NCBI GenBank assembly: GCA_902500775.1
Contig: CABVRZ010000001.1
Coordinates: forward strand, 215,182 to 279,181
Direction: 5' to 3'
Length of the DNA stretch: 64,000 nucleotides
Source of the DNA: an uncultured Nitrospira sp.
GTDB lineage: Bacteria > Nitrospirota > Nitrospiria > Nitrospirales > Nitrospiraceae
Every line of letters starts with the position of its first letter. Within the stretch, counting starts at the first letter, position 1. Both the position numbers and the translations under genes were made by a program. The notes under the pieces are model-generated. The model saw nothing but the letters and a program-made list of their open reading frames with translations, ran no database searches and was not told the origin of the DNA. Below are positions 16,016-50,162 of this stretch, one piece after another.

Positions 16016-16345
16016 GATGAGACCGCTGAATCTATGGCTGGAAGCTGTGGCATACCCCTCCTTGCACTGTGTACCGACCGGTGATTGTGTGAAATAGGCG
16101 AGACACTGTCAAGCGAGCATCGCCGGACACACCTTGTTAGCGTGAGAGTTGAACTATCTTGGCCGGCGATTTCAGGTTCATGCTTCGGGTTTGAGGTTGT
16201 TAGTTTCTGCACAACGTGAAACTTTGAACATGAAACCTGAAACTGAGGATGACAGGATGAAGCGACGAATACTTCCACAGCAGTATACTATGGAGTGACA
16301 GTGGAAGCGTTCACGAAGACTGTGCGTGATGCACCTGGGCAAGAC
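16016..16345. other. Intergenic region with short-word repeats
   Basis: No gene is seen in this 330-nt gap. Bases 16180-16255 contain repeated words of the type TGAAAC/GTTTCA in both orientations, matching family A repeats found elsewhere in the window. Confidence 0.5.
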
Positions 16346-22856: not shown

Positions 22857-23115
22857 GCATCTGATTCGTGGATGCTTCTGCGATAGCCAGCCATACCCAC
22901 GTTGGTATGACAATGCCCATCACTCACCTTTCGATAGAACCCCGGGCGTGAATCGTGAAACGTCTGAATCCAGAACGACATGCGCTTCACGAGATACAGC
23001 CACGGCGGGTCCCGCTACTATCCGGCAATGAGGCCCCTCCTCAGAGGAATGGCTCCCTTGCACTCCACCTCACTATGCTACGTCCCTACGGGTGGCATAC
23101 CAGGAGGACAGACCG

Positions 23116-23638: not shown

Positions 23639-24493
23639 CTACGGCTTGATGTCAAAGTGGATCGAGATTCCTCCATGCGCCAGGATCGTGTCGAGCGTGG
23701 AGTCATAGCGATTCATCACAAGATCCCCTTGGAGCAACGGGGCCGCAAAGGGACCGCCAGACAGCCCATAGCGATCCGACGTCAGCCCGTCATGATGAGC
23801 ACGGAGATACTTTGCCTCTGCGAACAGCGCCACGTACTTGAAGAGATGCACCTTGATGCCACCCATAGCCATAAGCCCGATCGTCGTATCCCGTTCTTCG
23901 GTGATGGCACGGTAAAAACCAGTCCCCCGTTGTCCACCAGGTTTCGTTGCGATCTGATGCGCGCCTATGCCGATCCCGACGTACGGAAACCATCGCCCAT
24001 TGGGATAGGCCTCGGAAATCGCCAGTGGATAGCGAATCAGGAAGTTCGAGCCAACGTAGATGCCATTGATTTCAGCCGTTTCGCCCGATCCTGTCGTGGG
24101 ATCAAAATTGTAATTATCCACACAGCAGGCCACATCTGCATACCACACCATACCGGTGATTTCTACGCCGAGATCGAATCCTGCCAGCTTGTTCCTGGTG
24201 GGAAACCAGATCCCCGCATTGCCCCCGAAGGAGTGTTTCGTCTGATAGTCAACATTCGGGATAATCGTCGGCGTCGTCCCGTCCGTAAACGTGGCGTCCG
24301 CACTGCGCGGAACTGCGATGCCCGCAAAAAATGACAGATAGGGTTCGATCGTCCCAGAAGACATGGTCGGTGGTTCAGACGATACTGCGTAGGGATCAGC
24401 GACCCGTTGGCTAGACAGATCACCTGCCAGGATGAGATCCGCTGAGCCGAGGACACAGAGGAAACACATTACCGCCGAAATTCTCGTTTTCAT
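23639..24493 (-). CDS. Outer-membrane beta-barrel paralogue 1 of 3
   Basis: The 284-residue protein has a signal peptide (SAVMCFLCVLGSADLILAG), then a barrel with strands such as PYLSFFAGIAVPRS, GNAGIWFPTRNKLAGFDLGVEITG, FLIRYPLAIS and GGIKVHLFKYVALFAEAKYL, ending in LAHGGISIHFDIKP. It is clearly paralogous to the next two genes, with the same ribosome-binding region (GGAGGACGCTGA before ATG). A vicinal cysteine pair (ACCVDNYNFDP) is conserved in all three. An outer-membrane location is likely; substrate or function is unknown. Confidence 0.75.
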   Translation of the reverse strand: MKTRISAVMCFLCVLGSADLILAGDLSSQRVADPYAVSSEPPTMSSGTIEPYLSFFAGIAVPRSADATFTDGTTPTIIPNVDYQTKHSFGGNAGIWFPTRNKLAGFDLGVEITGMVWYADVACCVDNYNFDPTTGSGETAEINGIYVGSNFLIRYPLAISEAYPNGRWFPYVGIGIGAHQIATKPGGQRGTGFYRAITEERDTTIGLMAMGGIKVHLFKYVALFAEAKYLRAHHDGLTSDRYGLSGGPFAAPLLQGDLVMNRYDSTLDTILAHGGISIHFDIKP

Positions 24494-25737
24494 TCAGCGT
24501 CCTCCAAACAGATAAAAAAACCATGTATCTCGACGAATCACATTTGAAGCTTCAAGTTTCATGTGTAACGTTTCAGAGCATCTAAAAATGTGGAACCTGA
24601 AACATGAGATTTAAGACTGCCCCAGAAACCTGAAACTTTTGATCGAAGGGTGAACACCACTCCACATACGACGCTTCACGAGCTCAGGCCCCTATGGCTT
24701 CCAGTCGAAGTGAAACGACAAGCCCGCATGCACAAAGACCGTATTGACCGTGGATGAATAGGGATTCACAAAGGGACCGGGTAATCCCATCAAGATATTC
24801 CCATCGGGAGAGTTCCCGAACCGATCAGACGACAGCCCATTGTGATGGGCATAGAGGTACTTTGCCTCTACAAACGCCGCCACATACTTGAAGAGATGCA
24901 TTTTTAGTCCACCCACACCCTGAAACCCAATCGTTGTGTCCCGTTGCTTGGTATTGACGTTAATTAGGGTCCCTCCCCTGAACCCTCCTGGCGCCATCGC
25001 CATCTGATGTGCCCCTACTCCGATCCCGACATATGGATGCCACCGCCCGTTAGGATAGGATTCAGAAATCGCCATGGGGTAGCGAATCAGGAAATTTGGA
25101 CCGACGTAGACTCCGTCAATTTCAGTCGTGGTGCCACGATTGATGGGCCCATTCGCAGGATCACCCGTCTGTGGATTATTGTTATAAAAGTCACGACAGC
25201 AATTTACGTCTGGATGCCAGACATAACCTGTGATTTCCACACCGAGATCGAATCCCCACAACTTATTTCTGGTGGGAAACCAGATCCCGGCGCTGCCCCC
25301 CCATGAGTGTGACAGCTTATGGTCGACATTCTCGACCACAGTCGGCGTAGTCCCGTCCTGAAACGTCGCATCCTGGCTGAATGGAATGGCCACGCCCGCC
25401 ATCACAGAAAAATAAGGCTCAAACGTCCCGGAGGACATGGTCGGGGGATTAGGCGATAGGGCATAGGGATCGGCGACCCGTTGGTTGTACGGATCTTCCG
25501 CCCGGGTAAGATCCGCAGAGCCGAGGACACAGAGGAGACACATCATCGCCGAAATTCTCGCGTTCATTCAGCGTCCTCCCAAAGATAAAGAAACCATCTA
25601 TCTCGATGAATCAAGTTTGAAGTTTACCGTTTCAGATTATCTAAAAACTTGGAACCTGAAACACGAAACTTAAAACTGCCCCCGACACATGAAACTCAGG
25701 ATCGAGGGGCAAACAATGTTTCACGAAGGCATACCCC
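24494..25737 (-). repeat. Duplicated spacers in the barrel gene triplet
   Basis: The spacers 24494-24691 and 25568-25737 align along most of their length: the same ribosome-binding region, an ATCTCGA(C/T)GAATCA stretch, TATCTAAAAA-type words and several GGAACCTGAAACA-like words. The duplicated unit was therefore gene plus spacer and not the gene alone. The coordinates given span both spacers and the gene between them. Confidence 0.65.
24692..25567 (-). CDS. Outer-membrane beta-barrel paralogue 2 of 3
   Basis: At 291 residues this copy differs from its neighbours mainly in the loop after the cysteine pair (NCCRDFYNNNPQTGDPANG) and in the loop before the last strand (SPDGNILMGLPG). Signal peptide, the WFPTRNKLWGFDLGVEITG core, KMHLFKYVAAFVEAKYLYAHHNGLSSDRFG and the end LSFHFDWKP are shared. 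Loop divergence with a fixed barrel suggests selection on surface-exposed parts, but this is inference. Confidence 0.75.
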   Translation of the reverse strand: MNARISAMMCLLCVLGSADLTRAEDPYNQRVADPYALSPNPPTMSSGTFEPYFSVMAGVAIPFSQDATFQDGTTPTVVENVDHKLSHSWGGSAGIWFPTRNKLWGFDLGVEITGYVWHPDVNCCRDFYNNNPQTGDPANGPINRGTTTEIDGVYVGPNFLIRYPMAISESYPNGRWHPYVGIGVGAHQMAMAPGGFRGGTLINVNTKQRDTTIGFQGVGGLKMHLFKYVAAFVEAKYLYAHHNGLSSDRFGNSPDGNILMGLPGPFVNPYSSTVNTVFVHAGLSFHFDWKP

Positions 25738-26610
25738 CTACGGCTTCCAGTCAAAGTGCAGCGACAAGCCCCCATGGACCAAGATCGTATCGATCGTGGA
25801 TGAATGTTGATTGACCACGAGATTTCCGCCTGTGAAATTGAAGACTGAGGACTGCCCAAACCGGTCCGTTACCAACCCATCGTGATGGGCTTGGAGATAC
25901 TTCGCCTCCACAAAAAAAGCTACATATTTAAAGAGATGCGCCTTGACACCACCCACTGCCTGCCATCCAACTGTCGTACTCCGTTGGTCGGTGATAACAT
26001 TCGTATCTAAAGCACCCCCCGGCACACAACACGAGCTAGCCCCATGGAATCCACCTGGCCTCATTGCCATCTGGTGCATACCCACGCCGATCCCGACGTA
26101 GGGAAACCACCGCCCGTTGGGATAAGCATCTGAAATCGCTAGGGGATAGCGAATCAGGAAATTCGGGCCAATGTAGAGTCCTTGGATCTCCGTCGCGGTA
26201 CCCGTACCCGCTGCGGGATCAAAATTATAATTATCCTGACAGCAGTGCACGTCCGGATACCAGAGAAACGCGGTGAGCTCCATGCCGAGATCGAACCCTG
26301 CCAACTTGTTTCTGGTGGGAAACCAAACCCCCAGGTTGCCACCGAGCGAGAATTTCGTCTTATAGTCAACATCTTCGACGAACGTCGGGGTGGTCCCGTC
26401 CGTAAACGTAGCCTCGGTGCTCCGCGGAATACCAATTCCTGCCATGAACGATAGATAGAACTCTGGCGTCCCGGAGGACATGGTCGGGGGATCAGGCGAG
26501 AGCGCATAGGGATCGGCGACCCGTTGGTTGTACGGATCTTCCGCCCGAGTAAGCTCCACAGAGCCGAGGACACAGAGGAGACACACCACCGCCGAAATTC
26601 TCGCTTTCAT
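25738..26610 (-). CDS. Outer-membrane beta-barrel paralogue 3 of 3
   Basis: The 290-residue third copy has the pair HCCQDNYNFDP and a unique second cysteine-containing loop (SSCCVPGGALDTN) in place of the short loop of the other copies. The rest follows the family: signal peptide, GNLGVWFPTRNKLAGFDLGMELTA, AFFVEAKYLQAHHDGLVTDRFG and final LSLHFDWKP. As the gene farthest upstream on the minus strand, it would be transcribed first if the three form one unit. Confidence 0.75.
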   Translation of the reverse strand: MKARISAVVCLLCVLGSVELTRAEDPYNQRVADPYALSPDPPTMSSGTPEFYLSFMAGIGIPRSTEATFTDGTTPTFVEDVDYKTKFSLGGNLGVWFPTRNKLAGFDLGMELTAFLWYPDVHCCQDNYNFDPAAGTGTATEIQGLYIGPNFLIRYPLAISDAYPNGRWFPYVGIGVGMHQMAMRPGGFHGASSCCVPGGALDTNVITDQRSTTVGWQAVGGVKAHLFKYVAFFVEAKYLQAHHDGLVTDRFGQSSVFNFTGGNLVVNQHSSTIDTILVHGGLSLHFDWKP

Positions 26611-29229: not shown

Positions 29230-29411
29230 TCCCTACCTCTTCCTTTTCCTTCCTGAAGACAGCGGTGAGAGCGTTGCTTACTGCGCGACCTTTCTCACTC
29301 ACCCACCCCGAGACGTGCTTTTTACCCATTGCGAGCATCTGCCACAACTGTGACAATTTCATTGATCTTGTGTGCGCGGTGGACGAGCACGAGAAATGCC
29401 CCAGCGCTGTT

Positions 29412-31061: not shown

Positions 31062-31775
31062 CTATTTCACCGTTGCACAATGTTCGGCCAATTCCTTCTC
31101 ATTCATTTTCAGAATCTTGGCCCATTCGTTCTTAAACGTGCCGTCTTGAATCTCTTTGATTCTCGTATCAAGCCCGACCGGCTTGTCAGTGAAATGTGCG
31201 CCTTGCGCCCGGCTGACATAGAGGGCGACGAGATTCGGCGCAATGTCGGCAATACAGACCGGCGTGCACATACCGCACATGACACAATCCATGAACATCT
31301 CGGAGACGCTCTTAAAGTCACCAAAGACGGCCTTCCAGACCCCTTCCCGCACATCGATTTTCTGCGGGCAGGCCTCAGTGCAGGCGTTACAATTTCGGCA
31401 CAGCGGCGCTTCCGGATAGAGATTGAACAAATCTTGTTTGGGGTCTTGAAGCGCCTGAATGTCGTACGTCGCCTTCCGGGCTGGAAAGGGTGGCATCATC
31501 GTAAACGACATGCCGTCCTGTACCGCCATCTGACAGGCGAGACAGGTTCTCACCTTTGGATCATCTTTCGTCCGATAGTACGTGGCACAGGCACCGCAGA
31601 ACCCACCAAGACAGCCGACGCCCCGTACGACATCGATGCCTGCGTACCACATGGCTTTGATAACGGTGATGCCTTCCGGCACGTCCACTTTCTTGCCGGC
31701 GATCTCGATCGTCACCATCCGAGGTTTCATCACCTCGGGTTGATCGATTACGTTCTCTATATTTTCTGAAGCCAT
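31062..31775 (-). CDS. frdB: Fumarate reductase iron-sulfur subunit
   Basis: The 237-residue protein has an N-terminal 2Fe-2S domain (GCLGGFCGACATYY then TCLACQ) and a C-terminal domain with two cysteine sets, CRNCNACTEACPQ and CVMCGMCTPVC, for two further clusters. It passes electrons to FrdA. It lacks the very long CCG-domain tail of TfrB-type subunits, and no membrane subunit is found nearby, so the electron donor is open. It is preceded by a spacer with a strong inverted repeat. Confidence 0.85.
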   Translation of the reverse strand: MASENIENVIDQPEVMKPRMVTIEIAGKKVDVPEGITVIKAMWYAGIDVVRGVGCLGGFCGACATYYRTKDDPKVRTCLACQMAVQDGMSFTMMPPFPARKATYDIQALQDPKQDLFNLYPEAPLCRNCNACTEACPQKIDVREGVWKAVFGDFKSVSEMFMDCVMCGMCTPVCIADIAPNLVALYVSRAQGAHFTDKPVGLDTRIKEIQDGTFKNEWAKILKMNEKELAEHCATVK

Positions 31776-31788
31776 AGACCATTCCCGT

Positions 31789-31834
31789 GCGAAACGTGAG
31801 GGCTTGCGCCCTCTTCCTTCCCCTCACGTTTCGC
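31789..31834. promoter_or_regulatory. Nested alternative hairpins between icd and frdB
   Basis: Arms 31789-31802 and 31821-31834 form a perfect 14-bp inverted repeat with an 18-nt loop. A second inverted repeat, GAGGGC-TTGC-GCCCTC at 31799-31814, overlaps the left arm, so the two stems cannot form together fully. There is no T-run. It lies inside the presumed acl-suc operon and may set the icd to frd ratio by partial termination, processing or stability. Confidence 0.55.
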
Positions 31835-31853
31835 GCTTCACGTTTAACGTCTT

Positions 31854-34109
<2,256 letters not shown>

Positions 34110-36442: not shown

Positions 36443-38263
36443 CTATTTCAACGGCGGCACTTCCCGTCGCTTCGGGGCTGCATAATTCACCAGGTAATCG
36501 AACAACCGGATCAAACGACTGTCCTGACGCTTCTGATCAACCCAGTGGCCGATTAATCCAATCGTGCGCGACAAGATGAAGAAGCCGTTCAAACTGTCGA
36601 CGGGAAAGCCCAGGTCGACCAGAACCGCGGCCATCGTGCCGTCCACATTCAAAATCAAGTTATCTTTCTTCACGGCCGTGACCTGCTCAACCGCCAAGGC
36701 AAAATCGAGACACGGTGTTTTGATTTTCAAGCTCTTCACATAGCCAACAAGCTCCTTCACACGCTTGTCTGGATTGCGCAGACTCTTCACTCGGTGGCCA
36801 ATGCCAGGCACTGGGCCGACATTTTTCTTCATGTAGACCAGGAACTCATCCACGTTCATCTTGTTGTCGACCGCGTACTTGAACCAGCGACCGGCATCCG
36901 TCACCGCACCACCGAAACGGGGCCCGATCATAATCAAGCCAGCAGCCACCGCTTGCGATAAACCGATACCAGCGCAAGCCGCCAGAATCGTGGCGTAGGC
37001 ACCGCTGACGCAAGGCCCATGATCGGCCGAGAGCATCATGATGCGCTTAATGATTTCCGCTTCCTGCTTGGAGATCAGACGCTTGTCCCAGAGCAATCCA
37101 ATGACATGGGGAATTTCATAACCCTTATTGATCAACTCGGAAGCTGGGTAGCCGTCGTAGCAAGGCTCGTCACCACGGTCGTCGCTGATCGTGGTCCGGA
37201 TCAACGGAGCCACCATCACTTCGTCGGCCTTCATCGCCTCTTCGACTGACTTTGGCAACTTGGGCAACACGGCCGGTTCGACCGGCTCCTTTACCTGACC
37301 GGACTCGAGCAGCTCTTGATAGGTTTCCTTGATAGCAGGGCCCAAGGCTCCGAATGTCGCCGGAACGATCGCGCCCGATTTTTTGAGCGCCTCAGACTTT
37401 GACCGGGCCGACCCCTCGCCCTTCATCCCTTCTTTGGCACCGGCATGGCCGAATTTCATGCCCTTGGGCAAGCTCTCCTGACAGAAGCCGGACACCACGC
37501 CGATCAACTTTACGCGACGCTTCTTGGCTCCGTACCACTCCGCTGCCCGCTCTTCGAGATCACCGCCCATTTCACCGACAATCACGACCGCCTTGGTCTG
37601 CGGATCCTTCTCGAACATTTCCAAATAACTGACGTAGTCAGTACCAGGATAGGCATCGCCACCAATCCCGATGGCCGTCGTGATGCCATCGGCAAATTGG
37701 GAGCAGATCCAGATAATTTCGTTCGAGAGACCGCCGGATTTTGTAATAACGCCAAAAGAACCCTCACGATACAACTTCGAGAGGACTAGGTTGTCGAACG
37801 CGCCACCGATGACACCCAACCGGCAGGCTCCCGCTGAGATGATGCCGATTGAAGATGGGCCGTTGAACACCTTCCCAAGCTTTCGAGCGTGGGCTCCAAG
37901 TAGTTTGGCATCCTTCTCCGGAACACCCTCGGTGATCATCGAGACGACCTTGATGTTCGGATCGTCCAACGCTTCCATGCCACCCTTCATGGCGCGGTCG
38001 GCCCCGATGTAGACGAGGCTGGTGTTGATGGCTGGATGATTCTTCGTCGCTTCTGCGATCGTTTTGTAAATGGGGATCGCGATCAGCCCGCTGCCATAGG
38101 GTACTTCATTGGTCTTGCCGGCATCGGGCGGATAGACGAATGCTTCGACCGTGAGGGGGCGCTTAATCAGGTAGCAGAACTCCGCCATCCGGCGGGCTGC
38201 ATTGACACCTGCGGCACCACCCTGAATCACCACGCGGGTGTCTTTATTGGCCAGAATGCTCAT
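36443..38263 (-). CDS. aclA: ATP-citrate lyase alpha subunit
   Basis: A 606-residue subunit. The N-terminal half is SucD-like (VVIQGGAAGVNAARRM, FNGPSSIGIISAG) and carries the phosphohistidine loop KFGHAGAKEG, with the histidine at residue 273. The C-terminal half is a citrate-synthase-like citryl-CoA lyase domain with LSADHGPCVSGAYATIL and GPRFGGAVTDAG. With AclB it cleaves citrate to acetyl-CoA and oxaloacetate using ATP, the key step of the reductive TCA cycle. The ATG at 38263 was chosen because GGAGG lies 8 nt upstream; the open frame extends a further 13 codons. Confidence 0.95.
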   Translation of the reverse strand: MSILANKDTRVVIQGGAAGVNAARRMAEFCYLIKRPLTVEAFVYPPDAGKTNEVPYGSGLIAIPIYKTIAEATKNHPAINTSLVYIGADRAMKGGMEALDDPNIKVVSMITEGVPEKDAKLLGAHARKLGKVFNGPSSIGIISAGACRLGVIGGAFDNLVLSKLYREGSFGVITKSGGLSNEIIWICSQFADGITTAIGIGGDAYPGTDYVSYLEMFEKDPQTKAVVIVGEMGGDLEERAAEWYGAKKRRVKLIGVVSGFCQESLPKGMKFGHAGAKEGMKGEGSARSKSEALKKSGAIVPATFGALGPAIKETYQELLESGQVKEPVEPAVLPKLPKSVEEAMKADEVMVAPLIRTTISDDRGDEPCYDGYPASELINKGYEIPHVIGLLWDKRLISKQEAEIIKRIMMLSADHGPCVSGAYATILAACAGIGLSQAVAAGLIMIGPRFGGAVTDAGRWFKYAVDNKMNVDEFLVYMKKNVGPVPGIGHRVKSLRNPDKRVKELVGYVKSLKIKTPCLDFALAVEQVTAVKKDNLILNVDGTMAAVLVDLGFPVDSLNGFFILSRTIGLIGHWVDQKRQDSRLIRLFDYLVNYAAPKRREVPPLK

Positions 38264-38338
38264 CGAAAGTCCTCCAACAGTGAAGCTTCCAGCGCTCGGC
38301 ATTTAGCCGACCGCTGATGGCTAATAGCTGATAGCTCG

Positions 38339-39535
38339 TTACTTTTGTAACGCTTTGTCGACGATGTCGGTCAGTGGGGTGTTGCGGTCGAAGACGTTGA
38401 TGTCGAAGCCCTCGTCCTTCAGTGCGCGCATCGCATCGAGACCTTCCCTCTCACGCGGCCCGCCGCGACGCACCCAGATCTTCACGCCCTTTAACTTACC
38501 ATCGCCCTTCGCTTTGCGAAATCCGTTAATGATGCCACCGAAGGTCTTTTTGACGTCGGTAAAATTCGCAATCGCCCCACCGACGATGATGTTCTTGATG
38601 CCGGGCAACGAGCAGACCTTTTCCGTCAGTACTTCCACAGCCCAGTCCGGTGGATCACCCGAATATTCGGCATAGTTCGCCAGTTTGCCGCCGCGGGCTA
38701 CCACCGCATCAGAGTAGTACACGCTGGCGCCACCACCGGCCGGCAACATCGCCGTGTCACCACCAGGAATCTCGATAAACTTCACTGAGCCCTTGATCTT
38801 GCTGTCGACTGCCATGACTTCCACTTCATCCTTGCTGTAGGAACGACCAAACTCTGCAGCAAACACAAAGTTCCAATCGGGATGGCGAAACTTGGCATCG
38901 CCGTCGAGCAGGGTCACCGCATCCAACGCCACCAATTCACCATCACTCTCCCTGGTCACAACCGGATTCACTTCAAGGTATTGTGCATCTTCGCTATCGA
39001 AGCAAGTAAACATCTTGCCGGCAAAGTCCGCCATCTTCTTCGTGAGTCCGCCGGTAAAACCCGCGTCTTTAGACAATTTCTCAAGTTGAGCCGGCGCGGG
39101 GCTCTGCCCGACTTCCAGGCACAACCGCTTCACGCGATCCCAGTTCGACTCCACCTCGATCCCACCGCAATTGGCGACAAGAACCTCACTGCCCTCGCGA
39201 GTCGACTTCACCGCACAATAGTATTCCTCTTTATGTGGGACCATCTCCGACACAATGACCTGCGAAACGGTGATGCTGCCGACCTGACGACCGATCATTT
39301 CCTTGGTCGCAGCTACGGCCCCGTTCAAGTCCAACCCAACCTTGACCAGGCCAAGCTTAAAGCGTGAACCGAGCGCCTCGTGCGCTTTCGCCACCAGCTT
39401 CGACGTCTTCATCCAATCATTGGCTTGTCCGAGCTTGGTTAGTTCGTCGGCGGACGTGACGACGACATAGTTGGGGACGTGAATCCCCCACTTCTTCATC
39501 AGCCCCATGCCGGGGCCTTCCAATACCTTAGCCAT
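38339..39535 (-). CDS. aclB: ATP-citrate lyase beta subunit
   Basis: The 398-residue SucC-like ATP-grasp subunit begins MAKVLEGPGMGLMKKWGI and includes FTCFDSEDAQYLEVNPVV and LPAGGGASVYYSDAVV. It binds citrate and ATP in the heteromeric enzyme known from green sulfur bacteria. The ATG at 39535 has AAGGAG 8 nt upstream; the longer frame adds 20 residues unlike the family. As first gene of the unit, it has a promoter-like sequence about 150 nt upstream. Confidence 0.95.
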   Translation of the reverse strand: MAKVLEGPGMGLMKKWGIHVPNYVVVTSADELTKLGQANDWMKTSKLVAKAHEALGSRFKLGLVKVGLDLNGAVAATKEMIGRQVGSITVSQVIVSEMVPHKEEYYCAVKSTREGSEVLVANCGGIEVESNWDRVKRLCLEVGQSPAPAQLEKLSKDAGFTGGLTKKMADFAGKMFTCFDSEDAQYLEVNPVVTRESDGELVALDAVTLLDGDAKFRHPDWNFVFAAEFGRSYSKDEVEVMAVDSKIKGSVKFIEIPGGDTAMLPAGGGASVYYSDAVVARGGKLANYAEYSGDPPDWAVEVLTEKVCSLPGIKNIIVGGAIANFTDVKKTFGGIINGFRKAKGDGKLKGVKIWVRRGGPREREGLDAMRALKDEGFDINVFDRNTPLTDIVDKALQK

Positions 39536-39679
39536 GCGAATTCTCCTTCGTAGTAACTCAGGCAAATAGGGGACCCGGATTCTAGCGGAACTCAATGGGA
39601 TGACTCAAGACACCAGAGGGACTAAATTTGGAGGGAGCAAAAGGCCTAGCGAGCAATCCTCATCCGACATTTACTCGTA

Positions 39680-49425: not shown

Positions 49426-49454
49426 TTGCCGATCTACAACAATCTGTTTACACT
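49426..49454 (+). promoter_or_regulatory. Promoter directly abutting an ATG (leaderless-type)
   Basis: TTGCCG at 49426-49431 and TACACT at 49449-49454 have the ideal 17-nt spacing, and the ATG of the following gene begins 7 nt after the -10 box. There is no good ribosome-binding site. Confidence 0.5.
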
Positions 49455-49461
49455 GCTGGAT

Positions 49462-49710
49462 ATGTCACGGCGAGTCCTGATTCCTGGTGAAGATGAAGCG
49501 GGAACCCATGTTGGTGGGGTCCACAAACGTCCACCTATTCCCGACAATACACTCAAAGCCGAATGTCCGAAGTTCATGGCTCATGGCCCCTGCGGCGGTG
49601 TTCGCAAGGGAGGACTCTGCGAGGTCTACCCTGAGATGAAATGCCCTTGGGTTGTCCTCTACATCGAATTGGAGAAAATCGGCCAGACTGACTGGATGAA
49701 ACAGGTGTAG
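49462..49710 (+). CDS. Stand-alone MTHFR C-terminal (MetV-like) zinc domain
   Basis: The 82-residue protein contains ECPKFMAHGPCGGVRKGGLCEVYPEMKCPW with four cysteines, the signature of the MTHFR_C zinc-binding domain, which in acetogens forms the MetV partner of MetF. Here it is present almost alone, so it is a minimal version. It may support the MetF at 52477, about 3 kb away. The ATG at 49462 was chosen because a -10-like box lies 7 nt upstream. Confidence 0.7.
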   Translation: MSRRVLIPGEDEAGTHVGGVHKRPPIPDNTLKAECPKFMAHGPCGGVRKGGLCEVYPEMKCPWVVLYIELEKIGQTDWMKQV

Positions 49711-49730
49711 CAAGACGTGAGGCGTGAATC

Positions 49731-50162
49731 GTGAAACGTGAAACGGTCAAAAGAAAACCCAAGGTGACGAAACTGGGCTACAACGAGCGACATGCGAAAA
49801 GCGGCACCACAGCTCCGTTACCGGAGATCGAAACCTTTCCGAATCAATATAAGGGCTACGAGATTACGATTGAGATTCCTGAGTACACAGCCATTTGCCC
49901 CAAGACAAATTTACCGGACTTCGGCACCATCACGCTGCATTACATGCCAGACAACGCATGCCTCGAATTGAAGGCGCTCAAAATGTACATCCACGCCTAT
50001 CGGAATCTCGGCATCTTCTATGAGAATGCCGTCAATCGTATCCTCCAGGATGTCGTAAAATCCTGCAGACCGGTTTGGGCCAAAGTGACCGGTACCTTCA
50101 CTGCACGCGGCGGGCTATCCAGTAAAATTGAAGCCCGATATCCACAGACTCGGAAAGCCTAG
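49731..50162 (+). CDS. queF: NADPH-dependent preQ0 reductase
   Basis: The 143-residue protein has the catalytic cysteine and aspartate in CPKTNLPDFGTI, then CLELKALKMYIHAYRNLGIFYENAVNRI, the QueF specificity region. It reduces preQ0 to preQ1 in queuosine synthesis. The GTG at 49731 sits inside a short-word repeat that continues into the first codons, so a later GTG at about 49764 (before the LGYNERHA part) could be the true start. Confidence 0.9.
   Translation: MKRETVKRKPKVTKLGYNERHAKSGTTAPLPEIETFPNQYKGYEITIEIPEYTAICPKTNLPDFGTITLHYMPDNACLELKALKMYIHAYRNLGIFYENAVNRILQDVVKSCRPVWAKVTGTFTARGGLSSKIEARYPQTRKA

Follow-up and report, generated by a model that had tools for sequence, protein, structure and literature searches.

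Short words related to GTGAAAC recur between the genes of a 64,000-nucleotide stretch of DNA from an uncultured Nitrospira sp. (contig CABVRZ010000001.1, positions 215,182 to 279,181; hereafter the window), and a sequence-only reading had placed them in one family of intergenic mini-repeats whose origin and role were unexplained. What are these words, and what accounts for their distribution? The window has 54% G+C and carries genes for monomeric isocitrate dehydrogenase and ATP-citrate lyase. All six places reported earlier do contain the words, with both orientations represented over the set, and at each of them the seven-base self-match exceeds that of dinucleotide shuffles (p ≤ 0.016; 500 shuffles each). 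The words do not, however, form a single family: the six places comprise GTTTCAN hairpins (16180, 24541, 25614), laid out as (GTTTCAN)n, spacer, (NTGAAAC)n, and CGTGAARC arrays (22945, 31788, 49715).

Two kinds of heptanucleotide array in the window

The three GTTTCAN/NTGAAAC hairpins differ in how well they fold. The one at 16180-16255 lies in the gap 16016-16345 between two minus-strand genes (period-7 p = 0.006) and folds weakly, with z of −1.9 for the element and −0.9 for the whole gap. The hairpin at 24541-24648, in the gap 24494-24691 (p = 0.016), is flanked by two called minus-strand genes, neither with a Pfam match; its z of −1.1 for the element and −0.2 for the gap means that the fold there is not unusual. 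The third, at 25614-25696 in the gap 25568-25737 (p = 0.010), reaches −4.0 and −3.2, respectively. Positions 23639-26610 hold three adjacent minus-strand genes (284, 291 and 290 aa), none of which matches Pfam; their leader regions are similar in letters, and GTTTCAN hairpins lie between them. Positions 24530-25730 had no blastn match among plasmids, and none of 4227 Rfam families matched within the window.

Among the CGTGAARC arrays, the letters at 22945-22998 (gap 22857-23115) read as a CGTGAATCGTGAAACG array followed about 20 bases later by the reversed CGCTTCACGAGATAC; the period-7 signal of 22945-22965 was reached by 0 of 500 shuffles, and the whole-gap fold z is −0.8. The minus-strand hairpin at 31788-31860 (period-7 p = 0.006) lies in the intercistronic gap 31719-31853 and extends into the final codons of the monomeric isocitrate dehydrogenase gene upstream (31854-34085, minus strand; Pfam IDH PF03971, 1329.7 bits), while the gene downstream encodes a 2Fe-2S and 4Fe-4S protein (31062-31718, minus strand; Pfam Fer2_4 and Fer4 families). 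It forms a near-perfect stem, with z of −4.0 for the element and −4.8 for the gap. On the plus strand, the array CGTGAGGCGTGAATCGTGAAACGTGAAACG at 49715-49749 follows the stop codon of the gene at 49426-49710 (period-7 score 15.5, 0 of 500 shuffles); it has one arm only and no unusual fold. Unusual folding is not present at every site in the window.

One further array, missing from the earlier list, lies on the minus strand at 38264-38338. It is built of GCTGATA words, with a period-7 signal that none of 500 shuffles reached and a z of −2.6 for the gap, and is intercistronic between two ATP-citrate lyase genes, one at 38339-39595 with citrate-binding and ATP-grasp domains and one at 36443-38302 with CoA-ligase and citrate synthase domains.

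The description of the words as nearly always intergenic holds for five of the six places, which fall in gaps between called genes. Whether the array at 49715-49749 is intergenic depends on the start of the QueF-like gene: a start near 49764 leaves the array in a gap, and the caller's start at 49731 does not. Both starts are possible, because the Pfam QueF match opens only at residue 51 when the gene is read from 49764. A different kind of hairpin, TGCTCG...GCGCGCACA and GGTGCTCG...GCGCAGT, occurs at 29230-29411 and in the orthologous gaps of three relatives (G018, G082, G019), and in a fourth, G024, the gaps that this kind fills elsewhere hold a heptamer hairpin.

Seven-base tandems as the enriched unit

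The count of single 7-mers proposed in the sequence-only reading revealed only slight enrichment between genes. In 864 kb of the window's own genome (112 kb intergenic and 752 kb coding, with genes called by a home-made caller with a codon model), the intergenic excess was 1.72-fold for GTGAAAC, 1.64 for ATGAAAC, 1.15 for CTGAAAC, 1.09 for TTGAAAC and 0.97 for GTGAAGC. Seven-base tandem pairs were enriched 15.6-fold, a figure resting on few events (7 intergenic versus 3 coding places). The enriched unit is the seven-base tandem, not the single 7-mer. The same sample also holds a separate dispersed 10-mer family (ACGAACGGAA, GTCGAAGCAC, CCGTTCGTGC) and a TAGCAGTC/GCAGACTGCT family, both enriched between genes; these two families look like REP-type elements.

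Across the full genome, 79 contigs totalling 4.53 Mb, the pattern TGAARCNTGAARC occurs at 32 places, versus 2 for the pattern reversed. Among relatives, 49 of 59 carry it, at up to 132 places, and so do all 59 genus genomes drawn, at 1 to 137 places, with reversed controls at five places or fewer. A period scan free of word bias gave the same picture in sampled genus genomes: period 7, with its double, stands out, and no other period does. Gaps with period 7 in real versus shuffled sequence numbered 10 versus 1 in the own genome (one of the 10 being a homopolymer contig end), 18 versus 0 in G034, 12 versus 0 in G006, 9 versus 0 in G024 and 4 versus 0 in G077; the signal was weak in G018 and G082 (1 versus 0 each) and in G019 (2 versus 0), and the other two of the ten sampled genomes, G022 (0 versus 0.2) and G066 (0 versus 0.3), had no period-7 array at the stricter score.

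After removal of 6 of 102 arrays as low complexity, the genus sample retained 96 arrays with 42 distinct consensus words. The periodicity also runs across the arms: 21 of 28 spacers in genus GTTTCAN hairpins, two of which overlap, measure 13, 20, 27, 34 or 41 bases, so that the spacer lengths fall on one seven-base grid spanning the entire hairpin.

In stretches of G034 and G006 picked for richness, hairpins separate many neighbouring genes, and ten genes from these stretches belong to type II secretion and chemotaxis-type signalling. Hairpins are very dense between neighbours in such operons on contig C92 of G034 (L072, L073) and contigs C11 and C22 of G006 (L074, L075); one hairpin in each genome seems to lie inside a called gene (L077 1087-1158 and L074 10987-11045, respectively).

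Placement after stop codons and folding

Arrays were present in 51 of 805 codirectional and 10 of 148 convergent gaps (61 of 953 together) versus 1 of 179 divergent gaps, which bears out the suggested association with 3′ ends. With the two regions chosen for their richness set aside, the counts were 26 of 734, 6 of 142 and 0 of 173, respectively. The own genome alone gave 9 of 384, 3 of 68 and 0 of 82, and its 0 of 82 divergent versus 12 of 452 other gaps are counts too small to decide. The absence of arrays from divergent gaps may reflect only an intolerance of promoters to inserts.

Gaps with arrays fold better than others, with a median z of −2.2 in 45 gaps versus −0.06 in 160 sampled others (Mann-Whitney p = 3e-10). 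Orthologous gaps that can no longer be aligned in sequence still resemble each other in fold strength (42 pairs at 9 loci, rho 0.51, permutation p = 0.00025; the pairs were chosen by a local-score threshold and not independent, as pairs share gaps). An earlier version of this comparison, with a poor identity measure and 3 pairs, saw no agreement (p = 0.60).

Conserved place, changing words: the isocitrate dehydrogenase gap

We compared the gap after isocitrate dehydrogenase in the best-scoring 30 of 55 genomes with a match. Fold z was below −2 in 27 of the 30, the exceptions being L221 and L234, both shortened by the start call, and L232; period 7 was detected at p ≤ 0.05 in 26. The words themselves differ by species—GTGAAGC, GTGAGGC or GTGAGGA, GTGATGA, or GGACTGA—and their families, labelled by eye, switched at least nine times on a quick tree built from the gene's own DNA. 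Even sister pairs carry different word families (G000 versus G006, and G061 versus G032). RNAalifold on 18 of the 30 gaps yielded 14 pairs, 7 of them with both sides changed; of the 12 gaps outside that alignment, seven belong to a second, unfolded alignment and five (L211, L213, L216, L221, L234) to neither. Related species retain a hairpin at one spot while the words that spell it change.

A rho-independent terminator does not account for this hairpin: in all 30 isocitrate dehydrogenase gaps, the 35 bases immediately ahead of the following start lack a stretch of four or more Ts.

The gap between the ATP-citrate lyase genes, compared in the best-scoring 30 of 56 matching genomes, showed four word families (TATCAGC, TGAGTSC, GGACTGA and GTGATGA) with at least 12 changes on the tree among 29 genomes labelled by eye (G003 is unlabelled). 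Fold z was below −2 in only 15 of the 30, with five gaps shortened by the start call.

Word stocks and word grammar

The 59 genus genomes differ greatly in the words they carry. GTGATGNGTGATG occurs at 146 places in G077 and 70 in G060, versus at most 14 in each of the other 57; GGACTGAGGACTGA at 47 in G080 and 11 in both G028 and G005, versus at most 8 in the rest; and TGAGTSCTGAGTSC at 30 in G024 and 12 in G001, versus at most 8 in the rest. TGAARCNTGAARC reaches 137 places in G081, 132 in G006 and 116 in G011. These stocks do not dictate each place, because the local word often differs from the main word of the genome, as in G006, G024 and G080, the last of which has GTGATG at both compared loci and GGACTGA as its main word. 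A rule that both loci of a genome carry the same words fits G060, G018 and G031 and fails in G062, G024, G061, G006 and others. G018 has its own word at just 3 places genome-wide, 2 of which are the isocitrate dehydrogenase hairpin.

G077 illustrates the grammar of one such stock. In 17 hairpins of this genome the left arms are always GTGATG and the right arms CATCAC, never the reverse, and among the 100 of 146 places listed, 14 close pairs run plus then minus and none minus then plus. Both strands are present among these 100 places, and a replichore-linked strand bias was rejected. Among 92 GTGATGN words, gathered with at most one mismatch at loci found by the word itself, bases 1-4 are nearly fixed (92, 92, 91 and 91), bases 5 and 6 are nearly always T/C and G/C, and base 7 varies freely. 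The imprecise order noted in the window was confirmed within single genomes, whose hairpins differ in word number, word order and variable base, G077 included.

Within the genus, the two arms of a hairpin match no better than chance at their free bases. These pair at chance in G077 (21 of 53 versus 20.4 expected) and below it in the genus GTTTCAN hairpins (13 of 72 Watson-Crick versus 18.6 expected, p = 0.08), and such unmatched or chance-paired bases are not what one would expect if stem stability were strongly required.

Two other identities for the words were rejected. GTTTCAC is a parS half-site, the parS consensus palindrome being GTTTCACGTGAAAC; that palindrome was found at one place, with at most one mismatch allowed, in 1.78 Mb sampled from ten genomes, and the seventh base of the words varies freely. 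For a cassette of stop codons in all frames, TGA/TCA is indeed present in 26 of the 42 genus words versus 10.8 expected (and in 76 of the 96 arrays), and any stop on either strand in 34 of 42 versus 24.8 expected; TAG, however, is depleted (3 versus 9.3 expected), and TGA is not enriched in words from other phyla (37 of 134 versus 32.5 expected), which also speaks against a universal TGA core.

Arrays beyond the genus

A 26-base GTTTCAN pattern retrieved at least 120 stretches from other phyla, those listed including many from Flavobacterium together with Desulfobacterota, Acidobacteria, Verrucomicrobia and others. In these stretches, which were selected for GTTTCA arrays, period 7 leads with 355 runs, versus 86, 67, 83, 27 and 25 for periods 6, 8, 9, 10 and 11; 155 of the 355 belong to the searched family and 200 consist of other, varied words. 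In 24 GTTTCAN hairpins from other phyla, free bases pair well above chance (43 of 69 versus 29.8 expected, 0 of 1000 shuffles).

Stretches from Flavobacterium and relatives (L089, L104, L115, L119, L159) hold GTTTCAR hairpins with well-matched arms, often with a T run before and an A run after. Those from Desulfococcaceae HSG8 (L092, L138, L158) hold long ACGTTTC / ACGCATC / ACGTATC heptamer arrays that follow an ACGNNNN scheme, as does the CGTGAARC kind of the window.

Relation to known repeats

The origin of the words had been called unexplained; a published parallel exists for their kind. Judged from the available parts of the cited reports, the arrays are heptanucleotide-repeat hairpins like those known as STRR in heterocystous cyanobacteria, where such repeats occur as hupS-hupL hairpins and in the P6b stem of a tRNA-Leu intron (PMC2670836, PMC3488679). 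Like them, the Nitrospira arrays have seven-base tandem units, an intergenic place (on small numbers) and a hairpin fold. STRR units are likewise degenerate, can separate two genes of the same operon and fall into motif classes that vary by lineage, and roles in transcript stability or translation coupling have been proposed for them without proof (PMC2670836, PMC3488679). The Nitrospira arrays belong to another phylum and, compared with what those parts describe, stand apart in whole-genome word stocks that differ between sister species and in the re-spelling of one orthologous gap across 30 species.

Other heptamers, again as described in the available parts of each source, share some of these features. 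Class 3 elements of Geobacter metallireducens, five tandem heptanucleotides MTYCTGA drawn as fold-backs and present in many copies, have one consensus in one genome and were interpreted as protein-binding sites (PMC2700814). The GGGAATC and GGGGA(C/T)T heptamers of Xanthomonas and Nostoc form degenerate, intergenic, sometimes inverted arrays that occupy the same gaps in relatives with varying length and sequence; they differ in being G-rich and were studied as quadruplexes (PMC4692102), which the Nitrospira words, judged by eye from their letters, appear unable to form. TAACTGA of Beggiatoaceae is also an intergenic heptamer found across distant phyla, but it occurs mostly as direct repeats beside start codons (PMC4679880), whereas the Nitrospira arrays are inverted arms after stops.

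REP/REPIN sequences are likewise palindromic and extragenic, lie in transcribed gaps and have been proposed to protect transcripts, yet they share one consensus motif; Nitrospira moscoviensis is a row in a table of that paper (PMC12306157, available part). Membership in this class was rejected, as the Nitrospira arrays have no fixed consensus across copies, with 42 words in 96 arrays and variable hairpins in G077. The earlier view that they are unlike REP or MITE copies is supported insofar as they are not copies of one master and are not near-identical, as MITE copies would be. In the open-access literature, with most subscription papers outside its scope, we found nothing on these words in Nitrospira; pairs of the words matched, judging by title, an Agrobacterium transcriptome and two human microRNA papers. 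Within the reach of these searches, three things are new: the occurrence in this genus, word stocks that differ between genomes, and hairpins re-spelled at fixed places.

Origin and role of the arrays

Collectively, the arrays combine period 7, inverted arms, a place after stop codons and, at one locus, a fold kept with differing words. We infer that the transcript carries them as hairpins which keep cistrons apart or protect them, and that slippage by seven bases both creates and rewrites them, a reading to which we give an even chance. The words belong to arrays of heptanucleotide repeats, in most cases paired as inverted arms that flank a short spacer, and lie in presumably transcribed gaps after stops, between the genes of an operon and between convergent genes. 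Their RNA could fold into a hairpin that, by analogy with REP sequences and cyanobacterial STRR hairpins, may act as a transcript barrier, keeping 3′ exonucleases away from the upstream cistron or tuning the proportion of two cistrons. The arms would arise and be rewritten by seven-base slippage and local templating or fold-back copying, so that the fold could be kept while the letters change. One-arm arrays such as that at 49715 and the weak folds at 24541 and 16180 argue against a barrier.

Somewhat unlikely, in our estimate, is that the arrays are a neutral by-product, in which slippage favours seven-base units, fold-back copying yields inverted arms and the fold is unselected, with arrays surviving only where they are harmless, after stop codons and away from promoters. 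The unmatched free bases in the genus and the weaker ATP-citrate lyase locus speak against a stem under strict selection, which leaves room for this reading. The lead of period 7 in other phyla, with many unrelated words, is consistent with it, and a seven-base slippage bias has been proposed in print (PMC4692102, available part). It accounts poorly for the isocitrate dehydrogenase gap, where the unusual fold persists through the word switches, and for the persistence of fold strength where sequence no longer aligns.

We consider it unlikely that the arrays are mobile hairpins, a non-autonomous, species-specific family that inserts after stops, with old copies decaying and new ones replacing them. 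The sharp differences in word stocks would fit, as would the filling of the same gap by whole hairpins of different kinds in different species, and one gap that is an 8-base gene overlap in G034 holds a 143-base hairpin insert in G006. However, hairpins within one genome are not copies of each other, and in this single empty/filled gap the flanks have diverged so far that a target duplication is unreadable.

Still less probable is a genus-wide code, in which each species has its own word stock and hairpins at fixed places are re-spelled when the stock changes, via a trans-acting factor or a copying mechanism. Very unlikely is a putative DNA- or RNA-bound protein that reads the seven-base word in each genome, the stock following its taste: the nearly fixed and restricted bases of the G077 words and the excess of TGA/TCA in genus words would suit it, but to our knowledge there is no such protein, local words are often not the commonest of their genome (as in G080), and the TGA excess does not extend to other phyla.

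If, as in the preferred reading of rewritten transcript hairpins, the fold matters, Nitrospira would offer a natural experiment: a regulatory hairpin that has exchanged almost all of its bases and still retains its structure. This experiment would sit in carbon-fixing core operons, those of ATP-citrate lyase and isocitrate dehydrogenase, in gaps that sequence alignment would label unconserved, and the role of cyanobacterial and other heptamer hairpins would become testable by comparison. If instead the word stock is set in trans, there would be a new kind of genome-wide word factor to find.
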